Below are positions 26,528 to 57,078 of a stretch of DNA of 64,000 bases, one piece after another. Within the stretch, counting starts at the first letter, position 1. Each line of letters begins with the position of its first letter. The stretch lies in the NCBI GenBank assembly GCA_031291675.1, contig JARLIO010000062.1, positions 62,001-126,000 on the forward strand. Direction: 5' to 3'. Both the position numbers and the translations under genes were made by a program. The notes beneath the pieces were generated by a model, which searched no databases, had not been told where the DNA came from, and saw only the letters and a list, made by a program, of their open reading frames with translations. The DNA is from Azospirillaceae bacterium (lineage in GTDB: Bacteria > Pseudomonadota > Alphaproteobacteria > Azospirillales > Azospirillaceae).

Positions 26528-26683
26528 GTTCTCATTTCGGCTGTCGGCCCGCGGGCTGCCGCCCGCACCCGCTCGGGGTGAACCCCGAATCCCCCTTTCT
26601 TTTGACAAAAACAAAGGGAGTCCGGGGCATCGCCCCGGTTGGGTTTGGGCGAAAGCCCAACGCTTCGCCGCCAGAATGAGAAC
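26528..26683 (+). repeat. Repeat family B, copy 1 (MITE-like)
   Basis: A 156-bp element bounded by perfect 9-bp terminal inverted repeats, GTTCTCATT and AATGAGAAC. Internal palindromes include GCCCGCGGGC, CGGGGTGAACCCCG, CCGGGGCATCGCCCCGG and TTGGGTTTGGGCGAAAGCCCAA. Related copies lie at 37154 (inverted) and 49379. It encodes no protein and looks like a small non-autonomous repeat. Confidence 0.8.
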
Positions 26684-26800
26684 GGGTGCCAAGGTTGGTT
26701 CTCCGTTGCGGGTTGCAAAGCACCGTGAGATATTGCCGCCAAACGCGATCCGCGGCGGGCCATCGGGCCCTGGCGTGTGGGGCTGTGTGGATAGGCGGCG

Positions 26801-37153: not shown

Positions 37154-37300
37154 GTTCTCATTTTGGCGACGAAGCGTTGGGCTTTCGCCCAAACCCAACG
37201 GGGGCCATGCCCCAGCCCCCTTTGTTTTTGTCAAAATAGAGGGGGATTCGGGGTTCACCCCGAGCGGGTGCGGGCGGCAGCCCGCGGCCGCCGCCAAAAT
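37154..37300 (-). repeat. Repeat family B, copy 2 (inverted)
   Basis: The reverse-oriented counterpart of the copy at 26528. It begins GTTCTCATTTTGGCG and contains GTTGGGCTTTCGCCCAAACCC and GGGGTTCACCCCG. The far terminal repeat is degraded. It directly precedes the 3' end of the peptidase remnant. Confidence 0.75.
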
Positions 37301-38719: not shown

Positions 38720-39331
38720 CTATTGCGCGGCTTCGGGCGCGGGCGCCGTGTCATACTCGATAATCTCGGCCCCAAGCTGAAGTTTGATCCGGTTGATTTC
38801 GGCATCGAGTTTGCGGCGCCGTTCCAGCAGCTGTTCCAGGCGTTGGCGCAAGGGCGCGGTGGGATCGAGGTCGGTCTTGAGCGACTTCTTGAAAGCGAGC
38901 ACCGCGGGGCGGCTGATGGTGGGGCGGACCAGACCCCGGGCGCGGGCCATCGCGAGCTGCTCGTCGCTGAGCGAGGCCAGGGCATAGACCGTGGCATAGC
39001 TGGGCGGCGCCTCCTCCGGCAACAGCCGGCGGCTGTCGATGGCCTCGGCGGCGGCGCGGATCTGGAACGCGGTCTTGCGGCCAAAGGGCAGATCGGAATC
39101 GATCATGCTTTCATAGTCGCCGTGGGGCAAGGTCGCCTTGGCCTTGAGCAGGTAGCGGCCGATCACCAGGAATTTCTCCTGGGCCTGGCGCCACAGCCGA
39201 GTGATCTCGGCAACGAACTCCTCGCGGTTCTTGAAGTCCTGGACGACACGCTCCAGCTCGCCGACCCGTTCGTCGTCGCGCAAGCGGGCGGCAGCCGTGG
39301 TCTTGCTGATGGATTTCTGGATCAAGCTCAT
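38720..39331 (-). CDS. ParB-like partition companion protein
   Basis: A 203-aa basic, helical protein directly after parA (7-bp gap). It shows a central region compatible with a DNA-binding fold (YLLKAKATLPHGDYESMI, FGRKTAFQIRAAAEAI, YATVYALASLSDEQLAMA), and a C-terminal coiled coil (RLEQLLERRRKLDAEINRIK). It lacks the classic N-terminal ParB nuclease box, so it is a centromere-binding protein by position and general layout rather than a clear ParB homologue. The start at 39331 follows a GAGG-like site. Confidence 0.65.
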   Translation of the reverse strand: MSLIQKSISKTTAAARLRDDERVGELERVVQDFKNREEFVAEITRLWRQAQEKFLVIGRYLLKAKATLPHGDYESMIDSDLPFGRKTAFQIRAAAEAIDSRRLLPEEAPPSYATVYALASLSDEQLAMARARGLVRPTISRPAVLAFKKSLKTDLDPTAPLRQRLEQLLERRRKLDAEINRIKLQLGAEIIEYDTAPAPEAAQ

Positions 39332-39338
39332 CCCCGCC

Positions 39339-40061
39339 TCACAGGCCCAATTCGTTACGGATGAAGTGCCAGACACTGACAAAGTCGTCGCCGCCGCTGG
39401 CGCCACGGACCTCGATCACGCCCAGACCCAGCGGGCTGGTCGTGGTGATGTCGATGAATTGGCGGATGTCGATCGGGCATAGCGGGCCGACGGCGAGCAG
39501 GCTGCGCCGCGCCTCGTCCAGCAGCTTGGTGCCCTTCTGCGTCGCATTGAGCAAAAACGCCGCCTTGGCATGGCGATCGCGCAGATAGCGCATGAACGGG
39601 ATCACCGATTCGCGATCGTCCCAGCCCGGACGGGTCGGGACGATGATCAGGTCGGCGACCTGGAGCAGCGCCAGCATCTCGGCCGGGTGGTCTTCGATGC
39701 CCGGGGGCGTGTCGATCACCAGCAGATCATAGTCGTCGAGTTCACCGATCTCGTGGGCGCCGTTGAGCGGTGCTTCGTAATGCTCGATCCGCGGCATGGT
39801 TTCCGGGCGACGGGCCCACCATTTCGACAAGGTCTTTTGGCGGTCGAAGTCGATCACGGCGACCGAGAGGCCGTTATGGGCGGCGATCACGGCGACATTC
39901 TTGACGAAGGTGGTCTTGCCGCTGCCGCCCTTTGGGGACGCGGTCAGCAGCACCTTCTTGTACCGGGGACGGTTCGGCGGGGCCGGATCTGGGGGCCGGT
40001 CGAGGATGCTGGCATCGTCGACCGCCGCCGGCCGGGCGCTGGCAAGGGGGATTTCACCCAT
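39339..40061 (-). CDS. parA: ParA-type partition ATPase
   Basis: A 240-aa deviant-Walker ATPase for plasmid segregation. The Walker A motif KGGSGKTTFVKN carries both signature lysines (about residue 40 onward), then VAVIDFDRQKTLSKW and the Walker B-like LLVIDTPPGIED. The ATG at 40061 is preceded by GGAG at good spacing; upstream codons are not family-like. It is the first gene of a parA-parB-like-bluB unit, and a 26-bp near-palindrome about 140 bp upstream may be its operator or centromere. Confidence 0.9.
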   Translation of the reverse strand: MGEIPLASARPAAVDDASILDRPPDPAPPNRPRYKKVLLTASPKGGSGKTTFVKNVAVIAAHNGLSVAVIDFDRQKTLSKWWARRPETMPRIEHYEAPLNGAHEIGELDDYDLLVIDTPPGIEDHPAEMLALLQVADLIIVPTRPGWDDRESVIPFMRYLRDRHAKAAFLLNATQKGTKLLDEARRSLLAVGPLCPIDIRQFIDITTTSPLGLGVIEVRGASGGDDFVSVWHFIRNELGL

Positions 40062-40463
40062 CAAGGGTCTCCGGGAGGGACAAAAAGCGGGAGGACAACG
40101 TCCTGTCGGGACTGTTCTAGCGGATTTAGCGGCAAAGGCAAAACGGCGTTTGCGTTGGGTCGGGTAATTTTGGCGCCGGCCGATTTCGCTGGCTGCGATA
40201 AATGTCTGACAGCTGTTAGGCATTTGCGCGATGGCAGAGGCGGATTTCCGGGGTGGTCCTCTCCGTTGCCTCCAGGATAGGCTTTCGGCGCCGATCTTTC
40301 CAGGGCGGCGATCACGGGACCCCTTATCAAAGGGCCGCGGACAGGCTATATCGGCATGACCCGCTCGGCTGTGACCACGACGCGCACCGCGTCATTTTGA
40401 TCCCCCGGTCTGAGCGAGGCCCGATCTTTGTGAGCCCGGATCTTTTCGCGTACGGAGGAACCT
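40062..40463. other. Divergent intergenic region between parA and the sugar cassette
   Basis: About 400 bp containing promoters for both directions, a near-palindrome at 40200-40225 and no gene. The sugar cassette begins with a TTG codon after a strong GGAGG site at 40455-40459. Confidence 0.5.
40200..40225. promoter_or_regulatory. 26-bp near-palindrome upstream of parA
   Basis: AAATGTCTGACAG and CTGTTAGGCATTT match as inverted halves at 11 of 13 positions with no spacer. Its size and location suit a dimeric regulator site or a parS-like centromere for the ParA/ParB-like pair. Confidence 0.5.
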
Positions 40464-41402
40464 TTGCGTCTTCTCGTCACCGGTGGCTGTGGCTACAAGG
40501 GGAGCGTCCTGGTTCCCAAACTGCTTGCGGCAGGGCACGAGGTCGTGGTCTTCGACATTCAGTGGTTCGGCAATTTCCTGGCGCCGCACCCGCTTCTGAC
40601 GGTGATCGAGGGTGATATCCGCGCGATCGATCGCGTCGATCTCGACGGTGTCGCGGCGATCGTCCATTTGTCGTCGGTGGCCAACGATCCCTGCTCCGAC
40701 CTTGATCCCAAGCTGACCTGGGAGATCAGCTGTCTGGCGACCATGCAGCTGGCCGACAAGGCGCGGCGGGCCGGGGTTCACCGCTTCATCTATGCCTCGT
40801 CGGGCAGCGTCTATGGCGTCAAGGCGGAGGACCAGGTCACCGAGGACCTGCCGCTGATCCCGCTGTCGGAATACAACAAGACCAAGATGGTCGCCGAGCG
40901 CGTGCTGCTGAGCTATGCCGGCGACATGGTGGTGCAGATCGTGCGGCCGGCGACGGTGTGCGGTTATTCGCCCCGGATGCGCCTCGACGTCGCGGTCAAT
41001 CTGCTGACCATGCAGGCGCTGCTGCGCCACCACATCACGGTGCTGGGCGGCGACCAGATCCGCCCGAACATTCACATCGACGACGTGACCGATCTGTACC
41101 TGTTTTTGCTCGATCACCCGGAACATCACGGTATCTTTAATGCCGGCTTCGAGAATTTATCGATCCTGGAAATTGCCCAGCGTGTTACCCAGGTGGTGCC
41201 GGCCGAGATCGAAGTGAAACCGTCCAACGATCCGCGCTCCTATCGCATCAATTCCGACCGATTGCTGGCGACCGGGTTCCGGCCGCGCAAGAATGTCGCG
41301 ATCGCGATTGAGGAGGTTGCCGCCGCGGTCCGATCTGGCACCTTGAAGGATGAGGATCGCTGCTATAATCTGCGCTGGATGCAGCAGGGTTACGGCCGTT
41401 AG
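40464..41402 (+). CDS. NAD-dependent sugar epimerase/dehydratase (extended SDR)
   Basis: A 312-aa Rossmann-fold enzyme acting on a nucleotide sugar. The cofactor motif is TGGCGYKGS at the N-terminus; the catalytic serine is in YASSGSVYG and the YxxxK pair in YNKTKM. A later DDVTDLYLFLLD segment is family-typical. The start is TTG at 40464, six bases after a strong GGAGG, with no better ATG nearby. It opens a run of nine plus-strand genes ending at 49262. Substrate is unknown; 4-epimerase or dehydratase activity is the family expectation. Confidence 0.85.
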   Translation: MRLLVTGGCGYKGSVLVPKLLAAGHEVVVFDIQWFGNFLAPHPLLTVIEGDIRAIDRVDLDGVAAIVHLSSVANDPCSDLDPKLTWEISCLATMQLADKARRAGVHRFIYASSGSVYGVKAEDQVTEDLPLIPLSEYNKTKMVAERVLLSYAGDMVVQIVRPATVCGYSPRMRLDVAVNLLTMQALLRHHITVLGGDQIRPNIHIDDVTDLYLFLLDHPEHHGIFNAGFENLSILEIAQRVTQVVPAEIEVKPSNDPRSYRINSDRLLATGFRPRKNVAIAIEEVAAAVRSGTLKDEDRCYNLRWMQQGYGR

Positions 41403-41491
41403 AAGGACGGTCAACGGATCGTCTCGGGCCGTCCGCGGACCGCGGGCGGTGGTATCGCCGGGGCCCACCCCAACAGAGACGAAGCCGACAG

Positions 41492-42061
41492 ATGCGAAAC
41501 GACATCCGCGACTATCTCCAGCGCCTCAGCGCCGTTCTCGAAACAACCGATCTCAGCGGCGTTGAAAGCCTGGGCCAGGAATTGCTGGATTGCTGGCGCA
41601 CCGGTCGCCAATTGTTTTTGTGCGGCAATGGCGGCAGCGCGGCCAATGCCATCCACCTGGCCAATGATTTTCTCTACGGCATCTCCAAGCGACCAGGATC
41701 CGGGCTGCGGGTGACGGCGCTGCCGGCCAACAGTTCCGTGCTGACCTGTCTGGCCAACGACATGGGCTATGATCAGGTGTTCGCCCTGCAATTGGCGGTC
41801 CTGGCGCGCCCCGGCGACGTGCTGCTGGCGTTCTCGGGCAGCGGCAATTCGCCCAACATTTTGCGGGCGCTGGAGAAGGCGCGGGAAATCGGCATGCGCA
41901 GCTATGCGGTGCTCGGTTATTCCGGCGGGCAGGCCAAGGCGCTGGCCGACGTGCCGCTGCATTTCGCGATCGACGACATGCAGATCAGCGAGGACATCCA
42001 GCTGATCCTGGGACATCTGCTGATGCAGTGGCTGTACCGTCACCGTGATCAGGTCGCCTGA
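41492..42061 (+). CDS. SIS-domain phosphoheptose isomerase (GmhA-like)
   Basis: A 189-aa sugar-isomerase-domain protein similar to GmhA, which converts sedoheptulose 7-phosphate to heptose 7-phosphate at the start of heptose-nucleotide synthesis. The phosphate-binding motif FLCGNGGSAANAIHLANDF, the SGSGNSPNI loop and the C-terminal histidine region QLILGHLLMQWLY are all present. The stop is four bases before the next gene. Its presence points to a heptose-type sugar as the cassette's starting compound (inference). Confidence 0.85.
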   Translation: MRNDIRDYLQRLSAVLETTDLSGVESLGQELLDCWRTGRQLFLCGNGGSAANAIHLANDFLYGISKRPGSGLRVTALPANSSVLTCLANDMGYDQVFALQLAVLARPGDVLLAFSGSGNSPNILRALEKAREIGMRSYAVLGYSGGQAKALADVPLHFAIDDMQISEDIQLILGHLLMQWLYRHRDQVA

Positions 42062-42064
42062 ATC

Positions 42065-43057
42065 ATGGCCGACAAGGTCCTTGTTATCGGCAGCAATTCC
42101 TTTTCCGGCGCGTCATTTGTCGCCTTCCTGCTCGACCAGGGGCTGGAGGTGATCGGCGTCAGCCGGTCCGAGGAACCGCATCACGCCTTCCTGCCCTATC
42201 GCTGGGGCGCGGGCGAACGCCGCTTCACCTTTCATCGCCTGGACCTCAACCACGACCTCGACGCGCTCGACGCGCTGGTGCGCGAGCAACGCATCCCTGT
42301 CGTCGTCAATTTCGCGGCCCAAAGCATGGTCGGTGAAAGCTGGAAACATCCCGACCAGTGGATGATGACCAATGTCGTGGCAATGGTCCGGCTGCATGAA
42401 CGGTTGCGCCGGCTCGATTTTCTTGAGCGCTATGTTCATGTCACGACACCCGAGGTCTATGGCAGCACCGAGGGGTTCATCGCCGAGGACACGCCGTTTC
42501 GTCCCAGCACGCCCTATGCGGTATCACGGGCCGCCGCGGATATGAGCCTGCGCACTTATTTCGAGGCCTATGGTTTTCCGGTGCTGTTCACCCGCGCCGC
42601 CAATGTCTATGGCGCCGGTCAGCAGCTCTATCGCATCATTCCGCGTACCATCCTGTTCATCCTGCTGGGTCGGAAATTGCAGCTTCACGGCGGCGGCCAG
42701 TCGCGTCGCGCCTTCATCGACATCCGTGATGTGGCGCGGGCGACCTGGCAGATCGCCTGTGATGGCCAATTGGGCGAGACCTATCACATCTCGACCAATG
42801 AGATCGTCGCGATCCGCGACATTGTCGCCCGGATTTGCGAACGGCTCGGCGTCCGGTTCGAGGATTGCGTCGAAATGGTTGGCGATCGCCTGGGCAAGGA
42901 TTCCGCCTATATGCTGGACAGCGGCAAGCTGCGGCGCAGCCTGGGCTGGTCCGACACGGTTTCGCTGGATGCCGGGCTCGACGCCTGCATTTCCTGGGTC
43001 CGCGACCATTTTGACGCGTTGCGTCACCAACCGCTCGACTACCAACATAAGCCCTGA
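42065..43057 (+). CDS. NAD-dependent epimerase/dehydratase, RmlB/GMD-like
   Basis: A 330-aa extended SDR resembling dTDP-glucose or GDP-mannose 4,6-dehydratases. It has an unusual cofactor loop, VIGSNSFSGASF instead of the usual TGGAGFIGS, a TPEVYGST motif in place of TDEVYGS, and YAVSR where YxxxK is expected, so the catalytic lysine is an arginine. VNFAAQSMVGESW, TRAANVYGAGQQLYRI and a conserved GGGQSRRAFIDIRDVA follow. It is probably a nucleotide-sugar dehydratase or reductase of a distinct subgroup. Confidence 0.82.
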   Translation: MADKVLVIGSNSFSGASFVAFLLDQGLEVIGVSRSEEPHHAFLPYRWGAGERRFTFHRLDLNHDLDALDALVREQRIPVVVNFAAQSMVGESWKHPDQWMMTNVVAMVRLHERLRRLDFLERYVHVTTPEVYGSTEGFIAEDTPFRPSTPYAVSRAAADMSLRTYFEAYGFPVLFTRAANVYGAGQQLYRIIPRTILFILLGRKLQLHGGGQSRRAFIDIRDVARATWQIACDGQLGETYHISTNEIVAIRDIVARICERLGVRFEDCVEMVGDRLGKDSAYMLDSGKLRRSLGWSDTVSLDAGLDACISWVRDHFDALRHQPLDYQHKP

Positions 43058-43095
43058 TATTCCGGCTCAGGGGCCAACAGGCAAGGACAGGCGAA

Positions 43096-43755
43096 ATGGG
43101 GCAGGAGATCGATCTGCTGGTCAACTACCCGCGGACCAAACGCAATGTCGAGGACCGCGGTGCCACCAAGACCGAAGCGGATCGCGCGATCGCCCGGCAA
43201 TTCGGCCGGGAATTCTTTGATGGCGATCGCCGGACCGGCTATGGCGGGTTCGATTATCATCCGCGCTTCTGGCAGCCGGTGATCCCGACCCTGCGTGATC
43301 ATTTTGGCCTGTCGGCCGCCAGCAGCGTCCTTGATGTTGGTTGCGCCAAGGGCTTCATGCTGCACGACCTGGCGCAAACGATCCCCGGCATCACGATCCG
43401 TGGCATCGATGTGTCGCAATATGCCATCGACAACGCGCTCGACGACGTCAAACCCTGGGTCCAGGTCGCGGATGCCCGGGCGCTGCCGTTTGAGGACCGG
43501 TCCTTCGATGTCGTGATCGCGATCAACACGGTGCACAATCTGGAACGCGATGACCTGGCCCGGGCGCTGCGGGAAATCATGCGGGTCAGCCGCGGCCAGG
43601 CCTTCGTCACGGTTGATGCCTATCGCGATGACGCCGAGCGGCTGCGCATGGAGGCGTGGAACCTGACCGCGAAGACCGTCATGCATGTCGATGACTGGAC
43701 GGCGTTCTTTGCCGCGGTCGGCTACACCGGGGATTATTACTGGTTCATTCCATGA
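43096..43755 (+). CDS. SAM-dependent methyltransferase
   Basis: A 219-aa class I methyltransferase. The AdoMet-binding motif is VLDVGCAKGFMLHDL (about residues 77-91), followed by IRGIDVSQYAIDNA and the acidic DARALPFEDRSFDVVIAINT. The N-terminal 65 residues (KRNVEDRGATKTEADRAIA and YGGFDYHPRFWQP) are distinctive and probably bind the substrate. The ATG of the next gene overlaps the stop by ATGA, showing tight coupling. It should methylate the cassette's sugar or a keto intermediate. Confidence 0.85.
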   Translation: MGQEIDLLVNYPRTKRNVEDRGATKTEADRAIARQFGREFFDGDRRTGYGGFDYHPRFWQPVIPTLRDHFGLSAASSVLDVGCAKGFMLHDLAQTIPGITIRGIDVSQYAIDNALDDVKPWVQVADARALPFEDRSFDVVIAINTVHNLERDDLARALREIMRVSRGQAFVTVDAYRDDAERLRMEAWNLTAKTVMHVDDWTAFFAAVGYTGDYYWFIP

Positions 43756-44735
43756 GCGCGCGCCCCGACGCCGGCGTCAGCCGCGATCTGCTGTACCATC
43801 TGAAGCGGATCCGCCGGGTCGAGCTGGAGATCGCGCGGCGTTATCCCGAAGGCGCGATGCGTTGCCCGGTTCACCTGTCGGTCGGCCAGGAGGCGGTTGC
43901 CGCGGCGGTGGCCGTGACGTTGCGGCGCGAGGATCTGGCGGTCAGCGGGCATCGCGCCCACGCCCACTATCTGGGCAAGGGCGGCGATTTGACCGCGATG
44001 ATCGCTGAGATCTATGGCAAAGCGACCGGTTGCAGCGGCGGCAAGGGGGGGTCGATGCATTTGATCGACGAAGCCGCCGGATTCATGGGCAGCACCGCGA
44101 TTGTCGGCGGTACGATTCCGGTCGGTGTCGGCCTGGCCCTGGGCATGAAGCAGACCGGGACCGACCAGATCTCCTGCATTTTCCTGGGCGACGGTGCGAT
44201 CGAGGCCGGGGTGTTCTATGAATCGCTGAATTTCGCGGTGCTGAAGCGCCTGCCCGTGCTGTTCGTCTGCGAAAACAATCTGTATTCGGTCTATACCCCG
44301 CTGGCCAAGCGCCAGCCGGCGGGCCGGTGTATCGCCGATGTCGCGGCGGCGATCGGGGCGCGCACCGCCAGCGGCGACGGCAATGATGTCGAGCAGGTCT
44401 GGTCGCTGATGACCGACGCGGTGGCGGCGCTGCGCGCCGGCAGCGGACCGTGGTTCCTCGAGCTGGCGACGTATCGCTGGCTGGAGCATTGCGGACCCTT
44501 CTATGACAACGATATCGGTTATCGCAGCGAGGCCGAATTCCGGGCGTGGCAGGCCCGTGATCCCGTGGCGTGCCATCAGGCCCGGTTGATCGAACGCGGG
44601 GTGATCGATGCGGCGATGGTCGCCCGCCTGGACGCTGACATTGATGGCGAAGTGGCGCAGGCTTTCGCCGCCGCCGAGGCCGCGCCGTTCCCGGAACCCG
44701 GCGCCGCCTTCACCGATCTGTATGCGGGGCCCTGA
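43752..44735 (+). CDS. TPP-dependent dehydrogenase E1 alpha subunit
   Basis: A 327-aa alpha subunit of a thiamine-pyrophosphate enzyme of the 2-oxoacid dehydrogenase or acetoin type. The TPP-Mg motif runs from FLGDGAIEAGVFYESLNFA to VLFVCENN. The substrate-side segment GGKGGSMHLIDE and HRAHAHYLGKGG are conserved. The beta subunit follows two bases later. No E2 (lipoyl acyltransferase) or E3 is present in the cassette, so it may catalyse a carboligation or two-carbon transfer rather than oxidation (inference). Confidence 0.88.
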   Translation: MSARPDAGVSRDLLYHLKRIRRVELEIARRYPEGAMRCPVHLSVGQEAVAAAVAVTLRREDLAVSGHRAHAHYLGKGGDLTAMIAEIYGKATGCSGGKGGSMHLIDEAAGFMGSTAIVGGTIPVGVGLALGMKQTGTDQISCIFLGDGAIEAGVFYESLNFAVLKRLPVLFVCENNLYSVYTPLAKRQPAGRCIADVAAAIGARTASGDGNDVEQVWSLMTDAVAALRAGSGPWFLELATYRWLEHCGPFYDNDIGYRSEAEFRAWQARDPVACHQARLIERGVIDAAMVARLDADIDGEVAQAFAAAEAAPFPEPGAAFTDLYAGP

Positions 44736-44737
44736 CC

Positions 44738-45793
44738 ATGGCGCAACTCACCTTCGCCGCCGCGATCAATGACGCGTTGCGCATCGCCCTGACGATCGAT
44801 CCGCGCGTCATCTGCTACGGCCTGGGCACCGACGACCCCAAGGGCGTATTCGGCACCACTGCGGGGTTGCAGGCCCAGTTCGGCGCCGAGCGGGTGTTCG
44901 ACATGCCGACCGCGGAAAACGCCATGACCGGGATCGGTGTCGGCGCGGCGCTGTACGGACTGCGCCCGGTGCTGACCCATCAGCGGCTGGATTTCGCGCT
45001 GCTGTCGCTCGACCAGATCGTCAACAACGCTGCCAAATGGCATTTCATGTTTGGCGGTCGCCGCGCCGTGCCCTTGACGATCCGCATGATCATGGGGCGC
45101 GGCTGGGGCCAGGGACCGACGCATTCCCAGAACCTTCAGGCCTGGTTTGCTCATATCCCGGGGCTCAAGGTGGTGATGCCGGCGACCGCGGGCGATGCCA
45201 AGGGCCTGCTGCTGTCGGCGATCTTCGACGACAACCCGGTGATTTTTCTGGAACATCGCTGGCTGCATAACCTCAAGGGTGAGGTTGCCGAGGGCGATGT
45301 CCGGGTGCCGCTGGGCCGGGCCCAGCGGCTGCGCCGGGGCGATGCCATCACGATTGTCGCGATGTCGACGATGACGGCCGAAGCGTTGCACGCGGTTGAT
45401 TTCCTGGCCGATCATGGCGTCGCGGCCGATCTGATCGACCTGCGCAGCATCCGCCCGCTCGATTGGGACATGATTGCGGCCTCGGTCAAGCGCACCGGCC
45501 GGCTGTTGGTGCTGGATACCGGATCCCTGACCGGTTCCGTCGCGGGTGAGATCGTCGCCGGTATCGCGGAACGGGGCTGGAACGATCTCCAGGCCGCGCC
45601 GCGCCGCCTCGCGGTTCCCGATTTCCCCGAGGCGACCAGCCCGGCCCTGACCCGGACCTATCACGTCCGTGCCGAACAGATCGTCGATGCCGTTGCCGCG
45701 ATGCTGCAACGCCCGATCGACAGCGCCCCGCTGGCCGCCCGGCGCACCCACCCGCATGATGTCCCGGGCGCCTGGTTCACCGGCCCGTTCTGA
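44738..45793 (+). CDS. TPP-dependent dehydrogenase E1 beta subunit (transketolase-like)
   Basis: A 351-aa partner of the preceding alpha subunit. It carries the pyrimidine-binding transketolase-like domain (MPTAENAMTGIGVGAALYGL with a glutamate that activates TPP), and a C-terminal transketolase domain (ADLIDLRSIRPLDWD). The interface segment RMIMGRGWGQGPTHSQN is typical of E1 beta. The two subunits together should give a working alpha2-beta2 enzyme. It links the cassette's chemistry to TPP, the product of the thi genes in the same window. Confidence 0.9.
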   Translation: MAQLTFAAAINDALRIALTIDPRVICYGLGTDDPKGVFGTTAGLQAQFGAERVFDMPTAENAMTGIGVGAALYGLRPVLTHQRLDFALLSLDQIVNNAAKWHFMFGGRRAVPLTIRMIMGRGWGQGPTHSQNLQAWFAHIPGLKVVMPATAGDAKGLLLSAIFDDNPVIFLEHRWLHNLKGEVAEGDVRVPLGRAQRLRRGDAITIVAMSTMTAEALHAVDFLADHGVAADLIDLRSIRPLDWDMIAASVKRTGRLLVLDTGSLTGSVAGEIVAGIAERGWNDLQAAPRRLAVPDFPEATSPALTRTYHVRAEQIVDAVAAMLQRPIDSAPLAARRTHPHDVPGAWFTGPF

Positions 45794-45838
45794 GCGATGA
45801 TACCGGGGACCAGCCCCTTGATCGAGGATGCCACGCCC

Positions 45839-46933
45839 ATGACGGCAGCGACGATGCGCGCGGCCTTGTTGCGAACCCAGGGACAGAAGCTGGAACTGCG
45901 CAGCGACATCGGCTTTGCCGCGCCGGGCCGCGGCCAGGTTCTGGTCCGTGTCGCCTTTAGCGGGGTGTGCCACAGCCAGTTGATGGAGGTTCGTGGCGGC
46001 CGCGGCCCCGACGCCTGGCTGCCCCATCTGCTCGGTCACGAAGGGTCGGGGATCGTCCAGGCGATCGGTGCCGGCGTCACCAAGGTGGTGCCGGGCGACC
46101 GGGTGATTCTGGGCTGGATCAAGGGATCGGGGCTGGAGGCGGGCGGCGCGCACTACCAGTGCGGTGACACCAGGATCAATGCGGGTGGGGTGACCACCTT
46201 CAACGAATATGCCCTGGTGTCAGAGAACCGGCTTACGCCCCTGCCCGACGACATTCCGATGGACATCGCTGTCCTGTTCGGCTGCGCGGTGCCGACCGGT
46301 GCCGGAATCGTGCTCAACGAACTGCAACCGCCGCCGGGCAGCACGATCGGCGTGTTCGGCCTGGGCGGGATCGGCATGAGCGCGCTGATGGCGACCGCAC
46401 TGTGTGATGCCGCCCGGGTGATTGCGGTCGACCGGGTGCCGGAAAAACTGGCCTTGGCGCGCGAATTCGGGGCGACCGATCTGATCGATGCCGGCGATAG
46501 CGACGTGCTGGCCGCGATCCGCGCCCTGACCGGGGGACGCGGTCTCGATTTCGCGGTCGAGGCGTCGGGACAGGTCCGGGTGATCGAGCAGGCCTTCGCC
46601 GCGGTCCGGCCGCAGGGCGGGCTGTGCGTTTTTGCCTCCCATCCCCGGCAGGGGGAGCGGATCGCGCTTGATCCCTACGACCTGATTTGCGGCCGGCAGA
46701 TCCGGGGCAGTTGGGGCGGTCGCTGTGTCCCCGACCGCGACATCCCGCGCTTCCTTGATTTGTACCGTCAGGGGCGTCTGCCGCTGGAAAAGCTGATCAC
46801 GCGCCGCTACCGGCTGGATCAGATCAACGAGGCCCTGGACGATCTGGAAGCGGGTCGCGTCGGCCGGCCGCTGATCGAAATCGCTCCGGATTTGGCGTCC
46901 GGGATTCCGGTTTCGGTAACGATCTCGGGGTAG
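45839..46933 (+). CDS. Zinc-dependent alcohol dehydrogenase (MDR family)
   Basis: An MDR-superfamily enzyme of 364 aa. The catalytic zinc site is seen as GVCHSQLMEVRG and HLLGHEGSGIV, with CAVPTGAG further on. The Rossmann motif is GVFGLGGIGMSALM. The structural four-cysteine lobe typical of classical class III enzymes is largely absent, as the region between 85 and 120 has only one Cys. The ATG at 45839 matches the usual start; an upstream ATG at 45797 would add 14 residues. It probably reduces or oxidises a carbonyl on the cassette's sugar. Confidence 0.85.
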   Translation: MTAATMRAALLRTQGQKLELRSDIGFAAPGRGQVLVRVAFSGVCHSQLMEVRGGRGPDAWLPHLLGHEGSGIVQAIGAGVTKVVPGDRVILGWIKGSGLEAGGAHYQCGDTRINAGGVTTFNEYALVSENRLTPLPDDIPMDIAVLFGCAVPTGAGIVLNELQPPPGSTIGVFGLGGIGMSALMATALCDAARVIAVDRVPEKLALAREFGATDLIDAGDSDVLAAIRALTGGRGLDFAVEASGQVRVIEQAFAAVRPQGGLCVFASHPRQGERIALDPYDLICGRQIRGSWGGRCVPDRDIPRFLDLYRQGRLPLEKLITRRYRLDQINEALDDLEAGRVGRPLIEIAPDLASGIPVSVTISG

Positions 46934-47007
46934 GCTGAAAGCCAGGTCGCCGGCGTGGTGATACGACCCGGCCCCGAGCCTGCCCATCGTCCTCAGGAAC
47001 AACTCTC

Positions 47008-48555
47008 ATGCATGATGCCGACCGCAGCCGTGATCTGGCCGAAATCGTCGCCGATATCCGCGACCAGGTCCCGCCCGGGGCGCGGATCGCCTTTGTCTCA
47101 GGCCTATTCAATGTGCTGCATCCCGGCCATGTCCGGCTGCTGAAATTCGCCGCGGAATGCAGCGATTTTCTTGTGGTCGGGGTGTTGGAGCGCATCGCCG
47201 ATCCGGGCGGCGATCCGCGCCATGAGGCGGCGGATGCCGCCAGCACGGTCCATGAGCGCTTCCTGCTGCCCAGTGACATGCGTCTGGAAGGCATGCGCGC
47301 GATTGCAATGGTCGATTACTGCTTCCTGCTGCGCGTGCCACCGGTGGTGCTGATCGGCGCCTTGCGGCCCGACATCGTGCTGAAGGGCAAGGAATTTGAA
47401 GCGCTCGACAATCCCGAGGCCGAGGCGGTGGCGGCCTATGGCGGCAAGCTCAGCTTCTCCTCCGGCGAAATGAGCTTTGCCTCCTTCGACCTTCTCGAGC
47501 GGCAATATGCCGGGATCAACGGTTCGAGCATTGCCAAGCCCCGGGATTATCCGGCCCGTCACGGATTTTCGGTCGCCGGGCTGATCCCGGCACTCGCGAA
47601 GCTGGCCGCGATGAAGGTCCTGGTGATCGGCGATCTGATCGTTGACGAATATATCGATTGCGACGCGCTGGGCATGTCGCAGGAGGATCCGACGATCGTG
47701 GTCCGGCCGATTGCGCGCAAACGCTTCATCGGCGGCAGCGGCATTGTCGCGGCCCACGCCGCCAAGCTGGGCGCCGGCGTGCATTATCTTTCGGTGGCCG
47801 GTGACGATGCCATCGCCGACTATGGCCGGGCGGGGTTGGACGCGTTGGGCATCGCCACGACGATCATCGAGGATCCCAGCCGGCCGACCACGCTGAAGAT
47901 GCGCTACCGCGCCGGCGGCAAGACGCTGCTGCGGGTCAGCGAACTGCGCCAACATGCCATCAGTGCCGAGATTGCCGAGCGGATCTATCGCGCGGCCGAG
48001 GAACAGATCGCCGGGGCCGATCTGCTGGTGTTTTCGGATTTCAACTATGGCTGTCTGCCGCAGGCGCTGGTCGACCGGCTGATCACGCTGGGCCGCGATG
48101 CCGGCGTCGCGATGGTGGCCGACAGCCAGGCCTCGTCGCAGGTCGCCGATATCGGCCGCTTCAAGGACATGTTGCTGATCACGCCGACGGAACGCGAGGC
48201 CCGGCTGGCGCTCCATGACTGGGATTCCGGTCTGGCCGAGATTGCGAGCAGTCTGCAAATGGCCGCCCGCTCGACCCATGTTGTGATCACGCTGGGCGCC
48301 GAGGGCATCCTGGTCCTCGCCAAGGAAAACGGAACCTATATTCTCGACCGGCTGCCGGCGCTCAATTCCGCGCCCAAGGATGTCGCGGGCGCCGGCGATT
48401 CCTTTCTGATTTCGGCGGCGATGGCGCTGTGCGCCGGCATGGACATCTGGCAGGCCGCCTATCTGGGCGCGATCGTCGCCGCCTGCCAGGTCGGTCGCGT
48501 CGGCAATACCCCGTTGCGGATCGAGGAAATTGTCCAAGAATTGGAAAGGCCCTGA
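47008..48555 (+). CDS. Nucleotidyltransferase-PfkB kinase fusion (HldE-like, reversed order)
   Basis: A 515-aa two-domain enzyme. The N-terminal half (about 1-170) is a cytidylyltransferase-fold domain with GLFNVLHPGHVRLL (the HxGH motif) and VLKGKEFE. The C-terminal half (about 195-510) is a PfkB/ribokinase-type sugar kinase with a GGSGIVAAHAAKLGA segment and the catalytic DVAGAGDSF. E. coli HldE has the same two activities but with kinase first. It would phosphorylate a sugar phosphate and transfer a nucleotide to it, as in ADP-heptose synthesis. The order and sequence suggest a separate lineage. Confidence 0.85.
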   Translation: MHDADRSRDLAEIVADIRDQVPPGARIAFVSGLFNVLHPGHVRLLKFAAECSDFLVVGVLERIADPGGDPRHEAADAASTVHERFLLPSDMRLEGMRAIAMVDYCFLLRVPPVVLIGALRPDIVLKGKEFEALDNPEAEAVAAYGGKLSFSSGEMSFASFDLLERQYAGINGSSIAKPRDYPARHGFSVAGLIPALAKLAAMKVLVIGDLIVDEYIDCDALGMSQEDPTIVVRPIARKRFIGGSGIVAAHAAKLGAGVHYLSVAGDDAIADYGRAGLDALGIATTIIEDPSRPTTLKMRYRAGGKTLLRVSELRQHAISAEIAERIYRAAEEQIAGADLLVFSDFNYGCLPQALVDRLITLGRDAGVAMVADSQASSQVADIGRFKDMLLITPTEREARLALHDWDSGLAEIASSLQMAARSTHVVITLGAEGILVLAKENGTYILDRLPALNSAPKDVAGAGDSFLISAAMALCAGMDIWQAAYLGAIVAACQVGRVGNTPLRIEEIVQELERP

Positions 48556-48557
48556 GC

Positions 48558-49262
48558 ATGAAGGCGTTGCTGCTGGCCGCGGGCCTGGGCACCCGGCTTC
48601 GGCCGCTGACCGAAACGGTGCCCAAATGCCTGGCACCGGTCCAGGGGCGACCCTTGCTGGGCTACTGGTTCGATCTGCTGTTCGTCGCGGGGATCACACG
48701 CGCCCGGGTCAACACCCATTACCTCGCCGATGCGGTTCGCGCATTCGTCGCGTCGTCACCCTGGCACGATCGGGTGTCTCTGGTGCATGAAGAGCGCCTG
48801 CTGGGAACCGGGGGCACCATCCTGGCCCAGCGCGCCTTTCTTGACGAGGGCCCCTTTCTGGTCGCGCATGCCGACAATTTGACACGGTTCGATGTCAGGG
48901 CATTCGTGCGGCGCCACCAGCAGCGTCCGGCCGGCGTCTTGATCACCATGATGACGTTCGACAGCGATACGCCGCAGAGCTGTGGTATCGTCGCCGAGAC
49001 CGGCGACGGGATCGTGACCGGATTTTTCGAAAAGGTCAGCGATCCGCCCGGCAACCGCGCCAACGCCGCGGTCTATATCTTCGAACCGGCGGTGATCGCC
49101 GCTCTGGCGGCGCTGGGCAAGCCGGTGATCGATCTCAGCACCGAGATCATTCCGCATTTTCTGGGACGGATCTGCACCTATCACAATGCCGACTACCACC
49201 GCGACATTGGTACGATCGAGAGCCTGGACCAGGCCCAGCGTGACTTTCCCGGGCTGGCGTGA
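48558..49262 (+). CDS. Sugar-1-phosphate nucleotidyltransferase
   Basis: A 234-aa NTP-transferase similar to HddC, GlmU or mannose-1-phosphate guanylyltransferases. The signature LLAAGLGTRLRPLTETVPK is at the N-terminus, followed by the LLGTGGTIL and HADN residues that bind nucleotide and metal. The C-terminal acyltransferase domain is absent. The ATG at 48558 lies just after the stop of the fusion kinase. It is the last gene of the cassette and gives it a second activating enzyme besides the fusion protein. Confidence 0.88.
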   Translation: MKALLLAAGLGTRLRPLTETVPKCLAPVQGRPLLGYWFDLLFVAGITRARVNTHYLADAVRAFVASSPWHDRVSLVHEERLLGTGGTILAQRAFLDEGPFLVAHADNLTRFDVRAFVRRHQQRPAGVLITMMTFDSDTPQSCGIVAETGDGIVTGFFEKVSDPPGNRANAAVYIFEPAVIAALAALGKPVIDLSTEIIPHFLGRICTYHNADYHRDIGTIESLDQAQRDFPGLA

Positions 49263-49965
49263 GCGGGTAGGGGTGTTGTGGGCGCCGGCATGGCCTCGTC
49301 AGTGAAAGTCTCATGCCGTGAAGGCGTACGCCCGACACCGGCCCCTGAGCCGGGGGAGAATTTCGCCTCCGGATGCTGATTGGCTGTCGGCCCGCGGGCT
49401 GCCGCCCGCACCCGCTCGGGGTGAACCCCGAACGCCCCTCTATTTTGATAAAAACAAAGGGGTCTGGGGCATGGCCCCGTTGGGTTTGGGCGAAAGCCCA
49501 ACGCGTCGTCGCCAAAAGGAGAACCGCTGGCATTCTTGCGGGTGAGAGGCGCCCGCGCCACTGTCTCTTTCCAGGCGCTCTCCTGATATCGGTTGCGATC
49601 GTCCCGAAAGACTTCCTTGTTCCGCCTCGCGCTACGCCGCGGTGGATTACATAGATCAGTGCCTCTGGAAAAACGAACCTGGTAAACGCCACCTCGCGCG
49701 GCAGCCTGAGTAGTTTCCGAGGCTGCCGTCGCGGGATTACTTGCGGCTATCATCAAACCGCCTGATTCGTTCGTACAAAAGGCGAATCTTTCGCGAACTT
49801 CGGCGTACCAGCCTGAAATATGGTGATATCCGCGTCATACAAGGGCGTTTTACAATGTCCGAAGCCGCTTCAATGACCTCCGGATCGCTCATCGCCGCCG
49901 ACAAGGTGAAGGGCACCGTCACGGGAGGTTCCCGTGAAGACATCAACAAACGGTGTGACGACGAC
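49263..49965. other. Non-coding gap after the sugar cassette
   Basis: About 700 bp that holds a family B repeat at 49379-49528 and otherwise no supported gene. The last 250 bp upstream of the CsbD gene are AT-richer and may contain its promoter. Confidence 0.45.
49379..49528 (+). repeat. Repeat family B, copy 3
   Basis: In the same orientation as the copy at 26528: GGCTGTCGGCCCGCGGGCTG, CGGGGTGAACCCCG, ACAAAGGGG and TTGGGTTTGGGCGAAAGCCC, ending GGAGAAC. The left terminal repeat is not conserved. Confidence 0.78.
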
Positions 49966-51268: not shown

Positions 51269-52120
51269 CGACCTTCTCGCCGTCGCCGACGAACTGCATA
51301 TGGGCCGCGCGGCCCTGCGCCTGGGTATGGCGCAACCGCCGCTCAGTCAGTCCATCACCCGGTTGGAACGGGAACTGGGTGTTCGATTGTTCGACCGGGT
51401 CAACCGGCGTCTGGCGCTGACGCCGGAGGGCGCCGGCTTTATCGACGAGGCCCGGGCCTCGGTGCTCCACGCGGACGCGGCGGCCCGCCTTGCCCGGTCG
51501 GCGGGGCAGGGGAGCGCCGGCACCATCCGGATCGGCTTTGTTTCGGGGGCACTTTACGATCGCCTGCCCCGGCGTCTGGCCCGCCTGAGACAGGCGCTTC
51601 CCGATGTGCGCCCGGTTCTCGTTGAGATCTCGGCCAACGACCAGCTGGCCGCGCTCGCGGACGGAAGCATCGATGTCGGCTTCGCGCACCCGCCGTTTGG
51701 CACCGGCGAAGCGCTGACCGTCACGGCGTTCCCCCCGGAGGAGACGATCGCGGTTCTGCCCGACGACGGGGAAAGCGGCGGTGTCAGCCTGGCCCGGGTC
51801 GCCGCGTGCGGGCTGATTCTGTTTCCGTCGACCCAGGGGCCGGTGTTCCATGCCGGCATCATGGACACGTTCGCCCGGGCGGGGATCAAGGTGCAGGTGG
51901 TTCAGGAGGCGACGCGGCCCTGACAATGCTGTCCCTGGTCTCGGCCGGCCTGGGCGCGGCACTGCTGCCGCACTCGATCCGGCGACTGGCCTTTGACGGT
52001 GTTCGCTTCGCCCCGATCACCGACGCGATAATGCCCACCTTGTCGCTGTCCATGATCATGAAACGCAGGCCGCACCCTCCGGTCGTGCGCCGCGTCTGGC
52101 AGGTTTTTTCCGAGGCATAG
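51267..52120 (+). pseudogene. LysR-family regulator, truncated and frameshifted
   Basis: The LysR helix-turn-helix is clear (LLAVADELHMGRAALRLG, then AQPPLSQSITRLERELG), but the first dozen residues are missing. The frame runs through the ligand-binding domain to VVQEATRP and then stops at about 51923. The rest of the domain (ALTMLSLVSAGLGAALLPHS to WQVFSEA) continues in another frame to 52120, so a one-base shift near 51910-51915 breaks the gene. It is next to a hydrolase fragment and a TnpB element, in a zone of gene decay. Confidence 0.75.
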
Positions 52121-52140
52121 GCGGAAGGATTGGCCCCGGG

Positions 52141-52241
52141 CGCCGGCGACCCGTCCCCCCGCGGTTTCCAGGCCCCGGGCCGCGCAATTCTGGTGGACCG
52201 AGCCCCCCTGTTTCAGAATGGCGCGCGCCACGGCCGGGGCG
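52141..52241 (-). repeat. Exact 101-bp copy of an oxidase segment
   Basis: Bases 52141-52241 are identical to 56305-56405, an internal part of the FAD oxidase gene (codons for VARAILKQGGSVHQNCAARG and beyond). The match ends abruptly on both sides. It lies between the LysR remnant and the TnpB element and is probably a stray recent copy. Confidence 0.85.
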
Positions 52242-52285
52242 TCGCGGGTGGAGGCAAAACGGCGTCGCCTCAGCGTATTCGAAAA

Positions 52286-52307
52286 GGTGAAATCGGAAGA
52301 TTTCACC
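52286..52307 (-). ncRNA. Right-end hairpin / possible omega-RNA segment
   Basis: GGTGAAATC and GATTTCACC form a perfect 9-bp stem with a GGAA loop about 95 bp beyond the tnpB stop. In IS605-type elements the 3' end of tnpB and the right end make the guide (omega) RNA. Whether this hairpin is the end structure or part of the RNA is not known. Confidence 0.45.
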
Positions 52308-52401: not shown

Positions 52402-53637
52402 TTACGCCGCCGTTTGGTCGGTTCCTGTTTCACCGGGCCGCCGAGGCGGTATCCCTCCGCAGGCATACGCGACGTGCCCCGCCGCGTTGAGAATGTTACG
52501 GGCTGCATTGCAGTCCGCGGATTGGGTATTGCCGCACTGGGCGCAGGTAAATGTGGTCTGGGCCTCGTGATTCCCAAGGGTGACGTGACCACAAACCGAA
52601 CATTGGCGGCGGATGTCGTGCGACGCGAGCAGGATGAGCTGTCCGCCCCTTTCGGACAATTTCCATCCCAGCATTGTGCGGAAGGCGAACCATCCTTGAC
52701 TCAGAACCGGCCGGCTGAGGCGGCGTTTTGCCGGGACCGCACCGCCTGGGGCCGTAACCGGGGCCGGGGCCGCACTGTCAGGCGCTCGCGAGCCCTGGCG
52801 GGTCGGGAGGCCCTCGAGGACCACGACGCCGTGGTTCTTCGCGATCGTCGTGGATGTCTTGTGAAGATAGTCACGGCGGGCATTGGCCTCCCGGACGAGC
52901 AGGCGGGTGACCTGCTTCTTCTGCTTGTGCCAGTTGGCGGAGCCCCGCTGTTTGCGGGCCAGTGCACGTTGGGCATGGCTCAACCGGTGTTCTATCCGCT
53001 CGAAACTGTCCGGTGGTTGGAACATCGTACCTTCCGAACCGGCCGCAAAGCACGAGGCTCCACGATCGATACCGATGGCCGGTGCTTCGGACCGCACCGG
53101 ATCGGCGACCTCACGCTCGGTCTGGATCGATATGAACCAATGCTGGGCCTTTTCGCTGACCGTCGCCTGGGCGATCGTGCCTTCCACGGGCCGGCTCGCC
53201 CGGTACTTCAGCCAACCAATCTTGGGGAGCCATACCCGTCCCCAGCCCTCGCGAACCGCTATCACTTTCACCGATATCGGATAGCGGAAACTGTCACCAT
53301 GGTTCTTGTTCTTGAAGCGGGGAAAACGTTTGCGCCCTGTATCGTCCTGGGGCCGAAAAGAATCGCGGAGGGCACGGTCCAGATCCTTGAGCTTTTGTTG
53401 AAGGGGATGGACATGAATCTCCGCCAGCCACGCGGTTTCTTCGGCATGGCGCCAGCCGGTGAGCCACCGGCACATTTCAGCATAGCCGGCGGTGCCCTCG
53501 CCGCGCGCCAGTCGTGATTTCTGTTCAGCGAGGGCACGGTTCCAAATGAAGCGGCACGATCCGGCGAAGCGCGCCAGTATCATCTGGCGGTCGACATCGG
53601 GTTCCAGCCGAAACCGATAGGCTTTGCGTTGCAGCAT
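52402..53637 (-). CDS. tnpB: RNA-guided endonuclease TnpB
   Basis: A 411-aa TnpB protein. The N-terminal MLQRKAYRFRLEPDVDRQ and the helical region up to about 170 are typical. All three RuvC acidic residues are visible: D in IGIDRGAS, E in VVVLEGL and D in SADCNAARNIL. A four-cysteine zinc finger (CSVCG and CAQCG) lies between the last two. The gene is intact with no frameshift. TnpB cuts DNA next to a short motif using an omega-RNA from the element's right end. No tnpA is present. Confidence 0.9.
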   Translation of the reverse strand: MLQRKAYRFRLEPDVDRQMILARFAGSCRFIWNRALAEQKSRLARGEGTAGYAEMCRWLTGWRHAEETAWLAEIHVHPLQQKLKDLDRALRDSFRPQDDTGRKRFPRFKNKNHGDSFRYPISVKVIAVREGWGRVWLPKIGWLKYRASRPVEGTIAQATVSEKAQHWFISIQTEREVADPVRSEAPAIGIDRGASCFAAGSEGTMFQPPDSFERIEHRLSHAQRALARKQRGSANWHKQKKQVTRLLVREANARRDYLHKTSTTIAKNHGVVVLEGLPTRQGSRAPDSAAPAPVTAPGGAVPAKRRLSRPVLSQGWFAFRTMLGWKLSERGGQLILLASHDIRRQCSVCGHVTLGNHEAQTTFTCAQCGNTQSADCNAARNILNAAGHVAYACGGIPPRRPGETGTDQTAA

Positions 53638-55570: not shown

Positions 55571-56896
55571 TCAGAATTCGGCGACCTTTCCGACGGCAAA
55601 CCCGGCGAAGCGGCGGGGATGATAGGGGCCTGGCTCGACGATGGCCGCATCACCCGTGATGATATCGGCGATCAGATGGCCCGCCCCGGGTCCGATCCCG
55701 AATCCGTGGCCGCTGAACCCGGCGGCCAGAATGAAACCGGGCAGGGCGCCGATCTCTCCGATCGCCGGGACGCCATCGGGTGTGCTGTCGATGTAACCGG
55801 CCCAGGCGGCGGTGACGGTGGTGGTTCTCAGCGCCGGCAACAAATCCAGGGCGCGGCGGTGTGTTCGTTGGATCGTGCCCTGGTCGGGTGTCGGATCGAG
55901 GATGCGCATGCGTTCCATCGGCGTCGGACGGTCCAGGCGCCAGGGACGCAGCGTTTCGTGGCCGGCGTTGATGCCGCCGAGCCCCCCCGGGAGCAGGTTG
56001 CGCCAACGCCGTCGGAACATCGGCAGAAACTGCGGCGCAAAGCGCAGTTGCTGGAGGGTCGGGTCGACGCGGCCCCGTCCGCTGATCGCGAGCGTATAGC
56101 CGCCATCGCCGCGCCGGGTCACGGAGATCGCCGCGGTGTGCAGCGCGTCAGGCAGGCCCGCGGCACCCGGGGAAACCGCCAGGATCGAGGAGCGGATCGA
56201 GGCCTGGGGAAAGCGGATGCCGAGTTGGTTGCAGAAGGAGGAACCCCAGGCGCCGCCGGCCATGATGGCGATCGGGGTGCGGATCGTGCCCTGTTCCGTG
56301 ATGACGCCGGCGACCCGTCCCCCCGCGGTTTCCAGGCCCCGGGCCGCGCAATTCTGGTGGACCGAGCCCCCCTGTTTCAGAATGGCGCGCGCCACGGCCG
56401 GGGCGGCGCTGGCCGGATCGGCGATGCCGTCGGTCGGTGAGAACACGCCGCCTTTCCAGGTCCGGCCTGTGGCATGGCCGTGTCGCGTCGCCGCGGCACT
56501 GTCCAGCATCCGGGTCGTGACCCCCACGGTCCGGGCAAAGTCGCGCCAGCGCGCCCAGGTCGCCAGTTCCCGCTCATCATTGCTGAGATAGAGCAGGCCG
56601 CAGCGCGTGAAGCCGGTGTTCTCGCCGCTTTCGCTGCCAAAGCGCTGCCACAGGTCGAGGCTGTGGGTCGCCATTGGCAATTCGCGGGCATCACGATTTT
56701 GTTGTCGGCACCAGCCCCAGTTCCGGCTGGATTGTTCGGCGCCGATCCGGCCCTTTTCCACCAGGGCAACCTTGAGCCCCCGCATCGTCAGGTAATAGGC
56801 GGCGAAGACACCGACAATGCCGCCACCGATCACGACGGCATCGGCGCGGTCCGGGATTTGCGGGGTGGATTGAATAGGCTGCAACGGCGCGGGCAT
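55571..56896 (-). CDS. FAD-dependent oxidoreductase (DAO family)
   Basis: A 441-aa flavoprotein of the glycine/sarcosine/D-amino-acid oxidase superfamily. The dinucleotide motif is VVIGGGIVGVFAAYYL near residues 20-36, followed by SSRNWGWCRQQNRD, in which the arginine and cysteine suggest a flavin-linking or substrate site. The C-terminal GFSGHGFGIGPGAGHLIAD completes the FAD fold. The ATG at 56896 gives the usual short pre-motif tail. It is divergent from an Lrp-type regulator and lies near a peptide-type ABC transporter, suggesting uptake and oxidation of an amino-acid derivative. Confidence 0.88.
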   Translation of the reverse strand: MPAPLQPIQSTPQIPDRADAVVIGGGIVGVFAAYYLTMRGLKVALVEKGRIGAEQSSRNWGWCRQQNRDARELPMATHSLDLWQRFGSESGENTGFTRCGLLYLSNDERELATWARWRDFARTVGVTTRMLDSAAATRHGHATGRTWKGGVFSPTDGIADPASAAPAVARAILKQGGSVHQNCAARGLETAGGRVAGVITEQGTIRTPIAIMAGGAWGSSFCNQLGIRFPQASIRSSILAVSPGAAGLPDALHTAAISVTRRGDGGYTLAISGRGRVDPTLQQLRFAPQFLPMFRRRWRNLLPGGLGGINAGHETLRPWRLDRPTPMERMRILDPTPDQGTIQRTHRRALDLLPALRTTTVTAAWAGYIDSTPDGVPAIGEIGALPGFILAAGFSGHGFGIGPGAGHLIADIITGDAAIVEPGPYHPRRFAGFAVGKVAEF

Positions 56897-57078
56897 GGGA
56901 TGAAACTCCAGAATCAGCATCCGGACCTTAGGGGTTCCCGGCCGGTTGGCGGCACTGGAGATCGCGGCGCTGCAGCATATCATTTTGTTGATGGCCGACG
57001 CGGCGAACGATTGTTCTGGAAGGGAGAATCCTCCACGATGGACAAAACCTCGTGCTATGCTAAGCTCTTTCCGGCCGG

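Follow-up and report, generated by a model that had tools for sequence, protein, structure and literature searches.

What does a two-subunit thiamine pyrophosphate (TPP)-dependent E1 enzyme do among nucleotide-sugar genes? The question is raised by a nine-gene cassette at positions 40464-49262 of a 64,000-nucleotide stretch of an Azospirillaceae genome (contig JARLIO010000062.1, positions 62,001 to 126,000; hereafter the window). The cassette encodes two extended short-chain dehydrogenases/reductases (SDR1 and SDR2), a SIS-domain protein (SIS), a methyltransferase (MT), E1 alpha and E1 beta, an alcohol dehydrogenase (ADH), a nucleotidyltransferase-PfkB kinase fusion and a further nucleotidyltransferase (NT). 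Based on comparison with homologous loci, it probably adds an acetyl-derived two-carbon branch, or extension, to a nucleotide keto-sugar for a surface or protein-linked glycan.

Recurrence of the cassette and exchange of its TPP enzyme

Relatives were sought by a class-wide SDR2 search and by an SDR2 profile scan of 84,980 species genomes, the results of which are the matches listed, so that locus counts drawn from them are lower bounds. Among the matches listed, close SDR2 relatives came from many Proteobacteria and from some Verrucomicrobia, Omnitrophota and Chlorobium; a search for SDR2 on plasmids gave no match. The table of SDR2 neighbourhoods holds 97 loci, the window included. Counting the window, 22 of them have the complete nine-gene set; two of the other 21 are duplicates (L153 of L053 and L157 of L055), so that 19 are distinct, and eight of these belong to Rhodopseudomonas. 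In the other loci the nine genes span 8.7-18.4 kb and their order is rearranged. An earlier note on this DNA had suggested searching for the same gene order elsewhere; the gene set recurs but the order does not. Given the recurrence in 21 other loci, the clustering of the nine genes is more than chance.

Homologous cassettes retain SDR1, SIS and SDR2 but bear a split transketolase in place of E1, with Transketolase_N on one gene and Transket_pyr and Transketolase_C on the next. Across the 97 loci, 37 carry E1 only, 49 transketolase only, three both and eight neither. For seven of the last eight the contig ends within ~1.1 kb of SDR2 on one side, which leaves L154 as a true exception. The TPP type changes 16 times on the SDR2 tree, and at least seven of these changes are forced by well-supported branches, indicating that the exchange is recurrent. 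The earlier note had named variable partners as an outcome that would refute its proposal. The partners do vary, as roughly one in two homologous clusters has the split transketolase instead of E1, and the rest of the set is conserved. We consider that the swap nevertheless strengthens the idea of a carboligase.

Downstream of the split transketolase lie a gene with no Pfam match, which we take to be HAD-like from its first residues alone, and then an APH-type kinase gene. The HAD-like gene was found in 46 and the kinase gene in 43 of the 49 transketolase loci, versus none of the E1-only loci. An AHAS-like TPP enzyme is present in 26 of the 34 non-duplicate E1 loci and in one of the 49 transketolase loci; the corresponding numbers are 24 and zero for a classical SDR and 21 and zero for an FkbM methyltransferase. 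None of these three lies near the window cassette.

The median identities to the window proteins were nearly the same in E1-type and transketolase-type loci for SDR1 (71 and 71%, respectively), SDR2 (65 and 64%) and NT (54 and 53%). They differed for MT (72 and 41%, p = 2e-12) and ADH (59 and 43%, p = 8e-10), with p-values that treat related loci as independent, a caution against the branching proposal. The differences for SIS (58 and 64%, in the reverse direction) and the fusion protein (53 and 44%) were mild. Since the identities of MT and ADH track the TPP type, both can be placed at or after the TPP step. Read simply, SDR1, SDR2 and NT would act for an acceptor shared by both types, and MT and ADH would process the product once it is branched.

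A second cluster, of the transketolase type, is found in the host genome on contig C99 (L196 8382-17493, ~58.4-67.5 kb of the contig). It comprises two SDRs, the HAD-like and APH genes, both transketolase genes (TktN and TktC), an MT and a C-methyltransferase-like gene. With an SDR1 homologue at 44% and an MT homologue at 39%, it is a transketolase-type paralogue of the cassette, and one cell may make two such sugars.

The E1 pair and its candidate reaction

Could the E1 pair belong to a 2-oxoacid dehydrogenase complex? The absence of an E2 or E3 dedicated to it, on which the earlier note had built, was borne out. The host genome holds two E2 genes, each within a canonical complex with another E1. 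One (contig C74) belongs to a pyruvate dehydrogenase (PDH) complex and is preceded by the E1 genes of that complex, alpha and a lipoyl-bearing beta; the other (contig C7), in an OGDH-like locus, is flanked by a 981-residue OdhA-like protein and an E3-like flavoprotein, as judged from sequence and order. The adjacent or dedicated lipoyl E2 and E3 that define a PDH or BCKDH E1 were thus not found with the cassette pair, and the E1 equivalog scores were below the cut-offs (alpha, 275.5 versus 393.9 bits; beta, 280 versus 321 bits). In the tree, a branch of support 100 separates the cassette E1 pairs, together with E1 pairs from other sugar clusters, from nine canonical pairs; the remaining one of the ten, L216, is a long branch close to the glycan E1 group.

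Both subunits retain the positions that we take to be catalytic in PDH E1: the TPP motif and H246 in E1 alpha, and E60 and H129 in E1 beta. E1 beta carries at its C terminus a conserved tail particular to its family, DVPxxxFxGPF, for which the AlphaFold model was of low confidence and uninformative. For one annotated homologue, on a streptomycete plasmid, the surrounding cluster shows no obvious sugar genes. The fold and the retained residues would fit an accessory E1 of a 2-oxoacid dehydrogenase, one that uses the housekeeping E2 and E3 (a sharing that is possible in principle) and whose location in the cassette is irrelevant to the sugar. We regard this as very improbable, because the pair is linked to the same sugar genes in 40 of the 97 loci, is mutually exclusive, save for three loci, with a split transketolase that has no E2, and forms a separate clade with scores under the E1 cut-offs. 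In its E1 alpha and beta subunits with catalytic residues, its lack of an E2 or E3 and its place in a nucleotide-sugar cluster, the pair is like alphaKADH2-type enzymes.

What reaction, then, might such a pair carry out? We propose that SIS, the fusion protein and NT would supply a sugar phosphate and convert it to the nucleotide-activated form, and that SDR1 and the 4,6-dehydratase-like SDR2 would convert the activated sugar to a keto-sugar nucleotide. E1 alpha and beta would decarboxylate a 2-oxoacid, most likely pyruvate, and the acetaldehyde equivalent would move from TPP to the keto-sugar carbonyl, giving an acyloin-type branch. The ADH would reduce the new branch ketone, and the methyltransferase would add a methyl group. 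We infer the donor and acceptor, the order of steps, the branch position, the reductase role of ADH, the product and its destination. Gene conservation, the lack of a dedicated E2, the retained E1 residues, the transketolase swap and the precedents together favor the carboligase reading. The swap also fits the published pair of an acetyl-branching E1-type enzyme and a split transketolase with proposed hydroxyacetyl branching. The suggestion of the earlier note that the E1 pair may extend or branch a nucleotide sugar, which MT and the dehydrogenase then modify, is favored by comparative genomics and precedent.

The same swap can be turned toward chain extension. Transketolases, which normally have aldehyde acceptors, replace E1 in half of the cassettes, and the HAD-like and APH-type kinase genes linked to them could act on phosphorylated sugars. 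The E1 pair would then transfer a two-carbon unit to an aldehyde, like 1-deoxyxylulose 5-phosphate synthase or transketolase, possibly on a sugar phosphate before activation, with SIS, the kinase and NT acting on the longer sugar. We consider this unlikely, as the published E1-type sugar enzymes use keto-sugars (PMC12247030) and SDR1 and SDR2, the genes suited to a nucleotide keto-sugar, stay unchanged across the swap.

Compared with RmlB, SDR2 retains the Thr, Glu and Tyr, whereas the RmlB Asp is replaced by Pro and the SDR Lys by Arg (YxxxR) in nearly all close members; the RmlB equivalog score was 207.8 bits versus a cut-off of 365.1. SDR2 of the window and the 96 other loci appears to have an unusual yet conserved active site. 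This feature is one of several points that weigh against branching of a keto-sugar. As SDR2 lacks both this lysine and this aspartate, it may not carry out 4,6-dehydration. The acceptor could also be an aldehyde, giving chain extension. A canonical E2 used as a single query matched none of the cassette loci, but it matched just two of ten canonical control loci, so its sensitivity was limited. The AHAS-like TPP enzyme had no close relative in the host genome (best match, 29%), so that the product must differ from that of most E1-type loci, or the pathway may be incomplete. Within the window, the cassette has no glycosyltransferase or export gene next to it. Finally, the activities of all members are predicted from sequence.

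Taking the proposed branching reaction across the 97 loci, we tentatively suggest, as a serious possibility, that widespread modular Gram-negative cassettes swap or combine an E1 pair, a split transketolase and an AHAS-like enzyme on one nucleotide-sugar scaffold. Lineages would thereby switch between acetyl- and hydroxyacetyl-branched sugars. Where two TPP enzymes are combined, branched sugars of ten carbons could result, for example the C4-branched sugar reported for the O-antigen of Rhodopseudomonas palustris.

Gene content, starting sugar and destination

All nine open reading frames (ORFs) are co-directional and tightly packed, with intergenic gaps of -4 to 89 bases, and the family assignments agree with Pfam matches (Table 1); both the close spacing on one strand and the families had been noted earlier and stand.

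Table 1. Genes of the cassette, with positions in the window
Gene	Position	Strand	Assignment	Basis
SDR1	40464..41402	+	extended SDR (epimerase family)	Pfam Epimerase 1e-36
SIS	41492..42061	+	SIS-domain protein, GmhA-like	Pfam SIS_2; TIGR00441 122.5 versus cut-off 209 bits
SDR2	42065..43057	+	4,6-dehydratase-like extended SDR with YxxxR	
MT	43096..43755	+	class I SAM methyltransferase	Pfam
E1 alpha	43752..44735	+	TPP-binding subunit, proposed carboligase	Pfam E1_dh 4e-59; aligned to human PDH E1 alpha; tree
E1 beta	44738..45793	+	proposed carboligase partner	Pfam, conserved residues, tree
ADH	45797..46933	+	zinc-type alcohol dehydrogenase, candidate branch-ketone reductase	Pfam
Fusion	47008..48555	+	nucleotidyltransferase (N-terminal)-PfkB kinase (C-terminal) fusion	Pfam; domain order opposite to HldE
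NT	48558..49262	+	sugar-1-phosphate nucleotidyltransferase	Pfam NTP_transferase 7e-28

SDR1 starts with TTG, a short way downstream of GGAGGA; it retains YxxxK and is without the dehydratase-type Glu. In the fusion protein, the CTP_transf_like match is slightly under the Pfam cut-off and the HxGH motif is present; NT starts two bases past the stop of the fusion gene. Curated NCBIfam equivalog cut-offs were missed for GmhA, HldE, HddC, RmlB and PDH-E1. As the scores are well under the cut-offs, the family names hold and the specific activities of GmhA, HldE, HddC and PDH-E1 do not.

This bears on the starting sugar. In its full version, the earlier note took the acceptor to be a heptose activated from sedoheptulose 7-phosphate through GmhA-, HldE- and HddC-type steps. 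SIS, PfkB and both nucleotidyltransferases do share superfamilies with the heptose enzymes, which offer a comparable set of steps, and in the PDB the PfkB part best matches a heptose 7-phosphate kinase. However, the catalytic Glu and His of GmhA are Asp and Gln in SIS (the Rhodopseudomonas SIS retains the His), the domain order of the fusion is reversed relative to HldE, and the curated cut-offs were missed widely (HldE, 145.5 versus 521 bits; HddC model NF049965, 51.5 versus 300 bits). No GmhB was found within the cassette. A heptose start is possible in light of these families, with no residue-level support, and the complete heptose route is doubtful.

Where the sugar may go is suggested by neighbors in other genomes. 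All eight Rhodopseudomonas cassettes (L107, L108, L110, L197-L201) adjoin flagellin and a GT41-type gene, and seven of them a flgK-like gene. These E1-type cassettes also carry the AHAS-like enzyme, the SDR and the FkbM methyltransferase. Such gene neighborhoods make glycosylation of flagellin with a branched sugar possible. Fourteen of the 49 transketolase cassettes adjoin an ABC-transporter gene that we take, by our own judgement of its family, to be of the O-antigen export kind. The window cassette adjoins no flagellin, GT41-type gene or O-antigen-export-type ABC-transporter gene, and a GT41 search of the host genome, with 16 matches over several contigs, was uninformative. In R. palustris CGA009 the O-antigen is described as made of a C4-branched sugar (Marchetti 2018, as cited in PMC9912281); the location of the Rhodopseudomonas cassettes beside flagellin and a GT41-type gene points to flagellin over O-antigen.

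The window cassette is directly preceded, on the opposite strand (38720-40223, - strand), by genes for a ParA-type ATPase and for a protein with no Pfam match. A 99-base inverted repeat (37189-37287 and 49392-49490, 91% complementary, 12.1 kb apart) flanks the cassette plus a few genes upstream; with a third copy at 26539-26691, it looks like a dispersed intergenic repeat. Further downstream, a fragment of a FAD-oxidoreductase-like ORF (55571-56983) is repeated at 51902-52306, as seen in the ORF list only, and a TnpB-like ORF (52402-53637) adjoins the fragment.

Comparison with known systems

The eleven-gene bradyrhizose cluster for an O-antigen sugar of photosynthetic Bradyrhizobium contains a 4,6-dehydratase-like gene (PMC4743980), as does the cassette, and some photosynthetic Bradyrhizobium genomes contain a cluster of the transketolase type. 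Bradyrhizose as the product was considered and is not established: SDR2 is present in five of 147 Bradyrhizobium genomes, and among the 13 with reaction-centre genes an SDR2 orthologue was found in two and none in 11. The carbon sum 7+2+1=10 is only suggestive. In two loci of photosynthetic Bradyrhizobium (L239 and L240), a transketolase-type cluster lacks an SDR2 orthologue; it could be identical with the published bradyrhizose cluster or a different one. In one Bradyrhizobium genome, no match to a canonical hldE-like gene was found within ~80 kb of the transketolase-type cluster, contrary to the published bradyrhizose context.

The C2-branched octoses of Gram-negative O-antigens have been attributed to single-chain YerE, versus E1-type pairs for Gram-positive antibiotics (PMC4753412). 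Like the proposed E1 reaction, that of YerE in the yersiniose pathway depends on TPP and attaches a two-carbon unit to a nucleotide keto-sugar, in this case for Gram-negative O-antigens. In contrast to the E1 pair, YerE is a single-chain AHAS-family flavoprotein; it has no specific homologue in the host genome, and an AHAS-like enzyme is present in most E1-type loci.

The miharamycin and amipurimycin transketolases are likewise encoded by two genes, and hydroxyacetyl branching by such split-gene enzymes has been proposed, not demonstrated in vitro (PMC12247030). They are streptomycete enzymes; sister cassettes bear such a pair, whereas the window cassette is of the E1 type. The sister clusters would therefore provide material for the open question of whether split transketolases act on keto-sugars (PMC12247030). 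As E1 and transketolase replace each other naturally on one scaffold, matched pairs of enzymes are available for studying or using the formation of carbon-carbon bonds on nucleotide sugars. Should sugars in Gram-negative bacteria indeed be branched by E1-type pairs and split transketolases, a testable chemistry could be assigned to many unassigned glycan clusters.

A further close likeness is to the alphaKADH2 enzymes, which put acetyl branches on keto-sugars in actinobacterial antibiotics (PMC12247030; also PMC4753412, PMC4425429, PMC10338323), on the evidence of knock-outs and feeding for aldgamycin and of in vitro work for KbDH (PMC12247030). The earlier note knew of no assigned pathway with this gene set, which seems right for the set, but E1-type sugar branching itself was already known (PMC12247030). 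Judged by published descriptions, AviB1/AviB2, Pau11/Pau12, EvdU5/EvdS3, KbDH-alpha/beta and the aldgamycin enzyme resemble the cassette pair in being two-gene E1-type TPP enzymes in sugar clusters that have no E2 or E3 and encode enzymes capable of forming a keto-sugar. The known cases serve actinobacterial antibiotics, whereas on our best reading what is new here is a conserved Gram-negative cassette with a recurrent exchange of E1 and transketolase.

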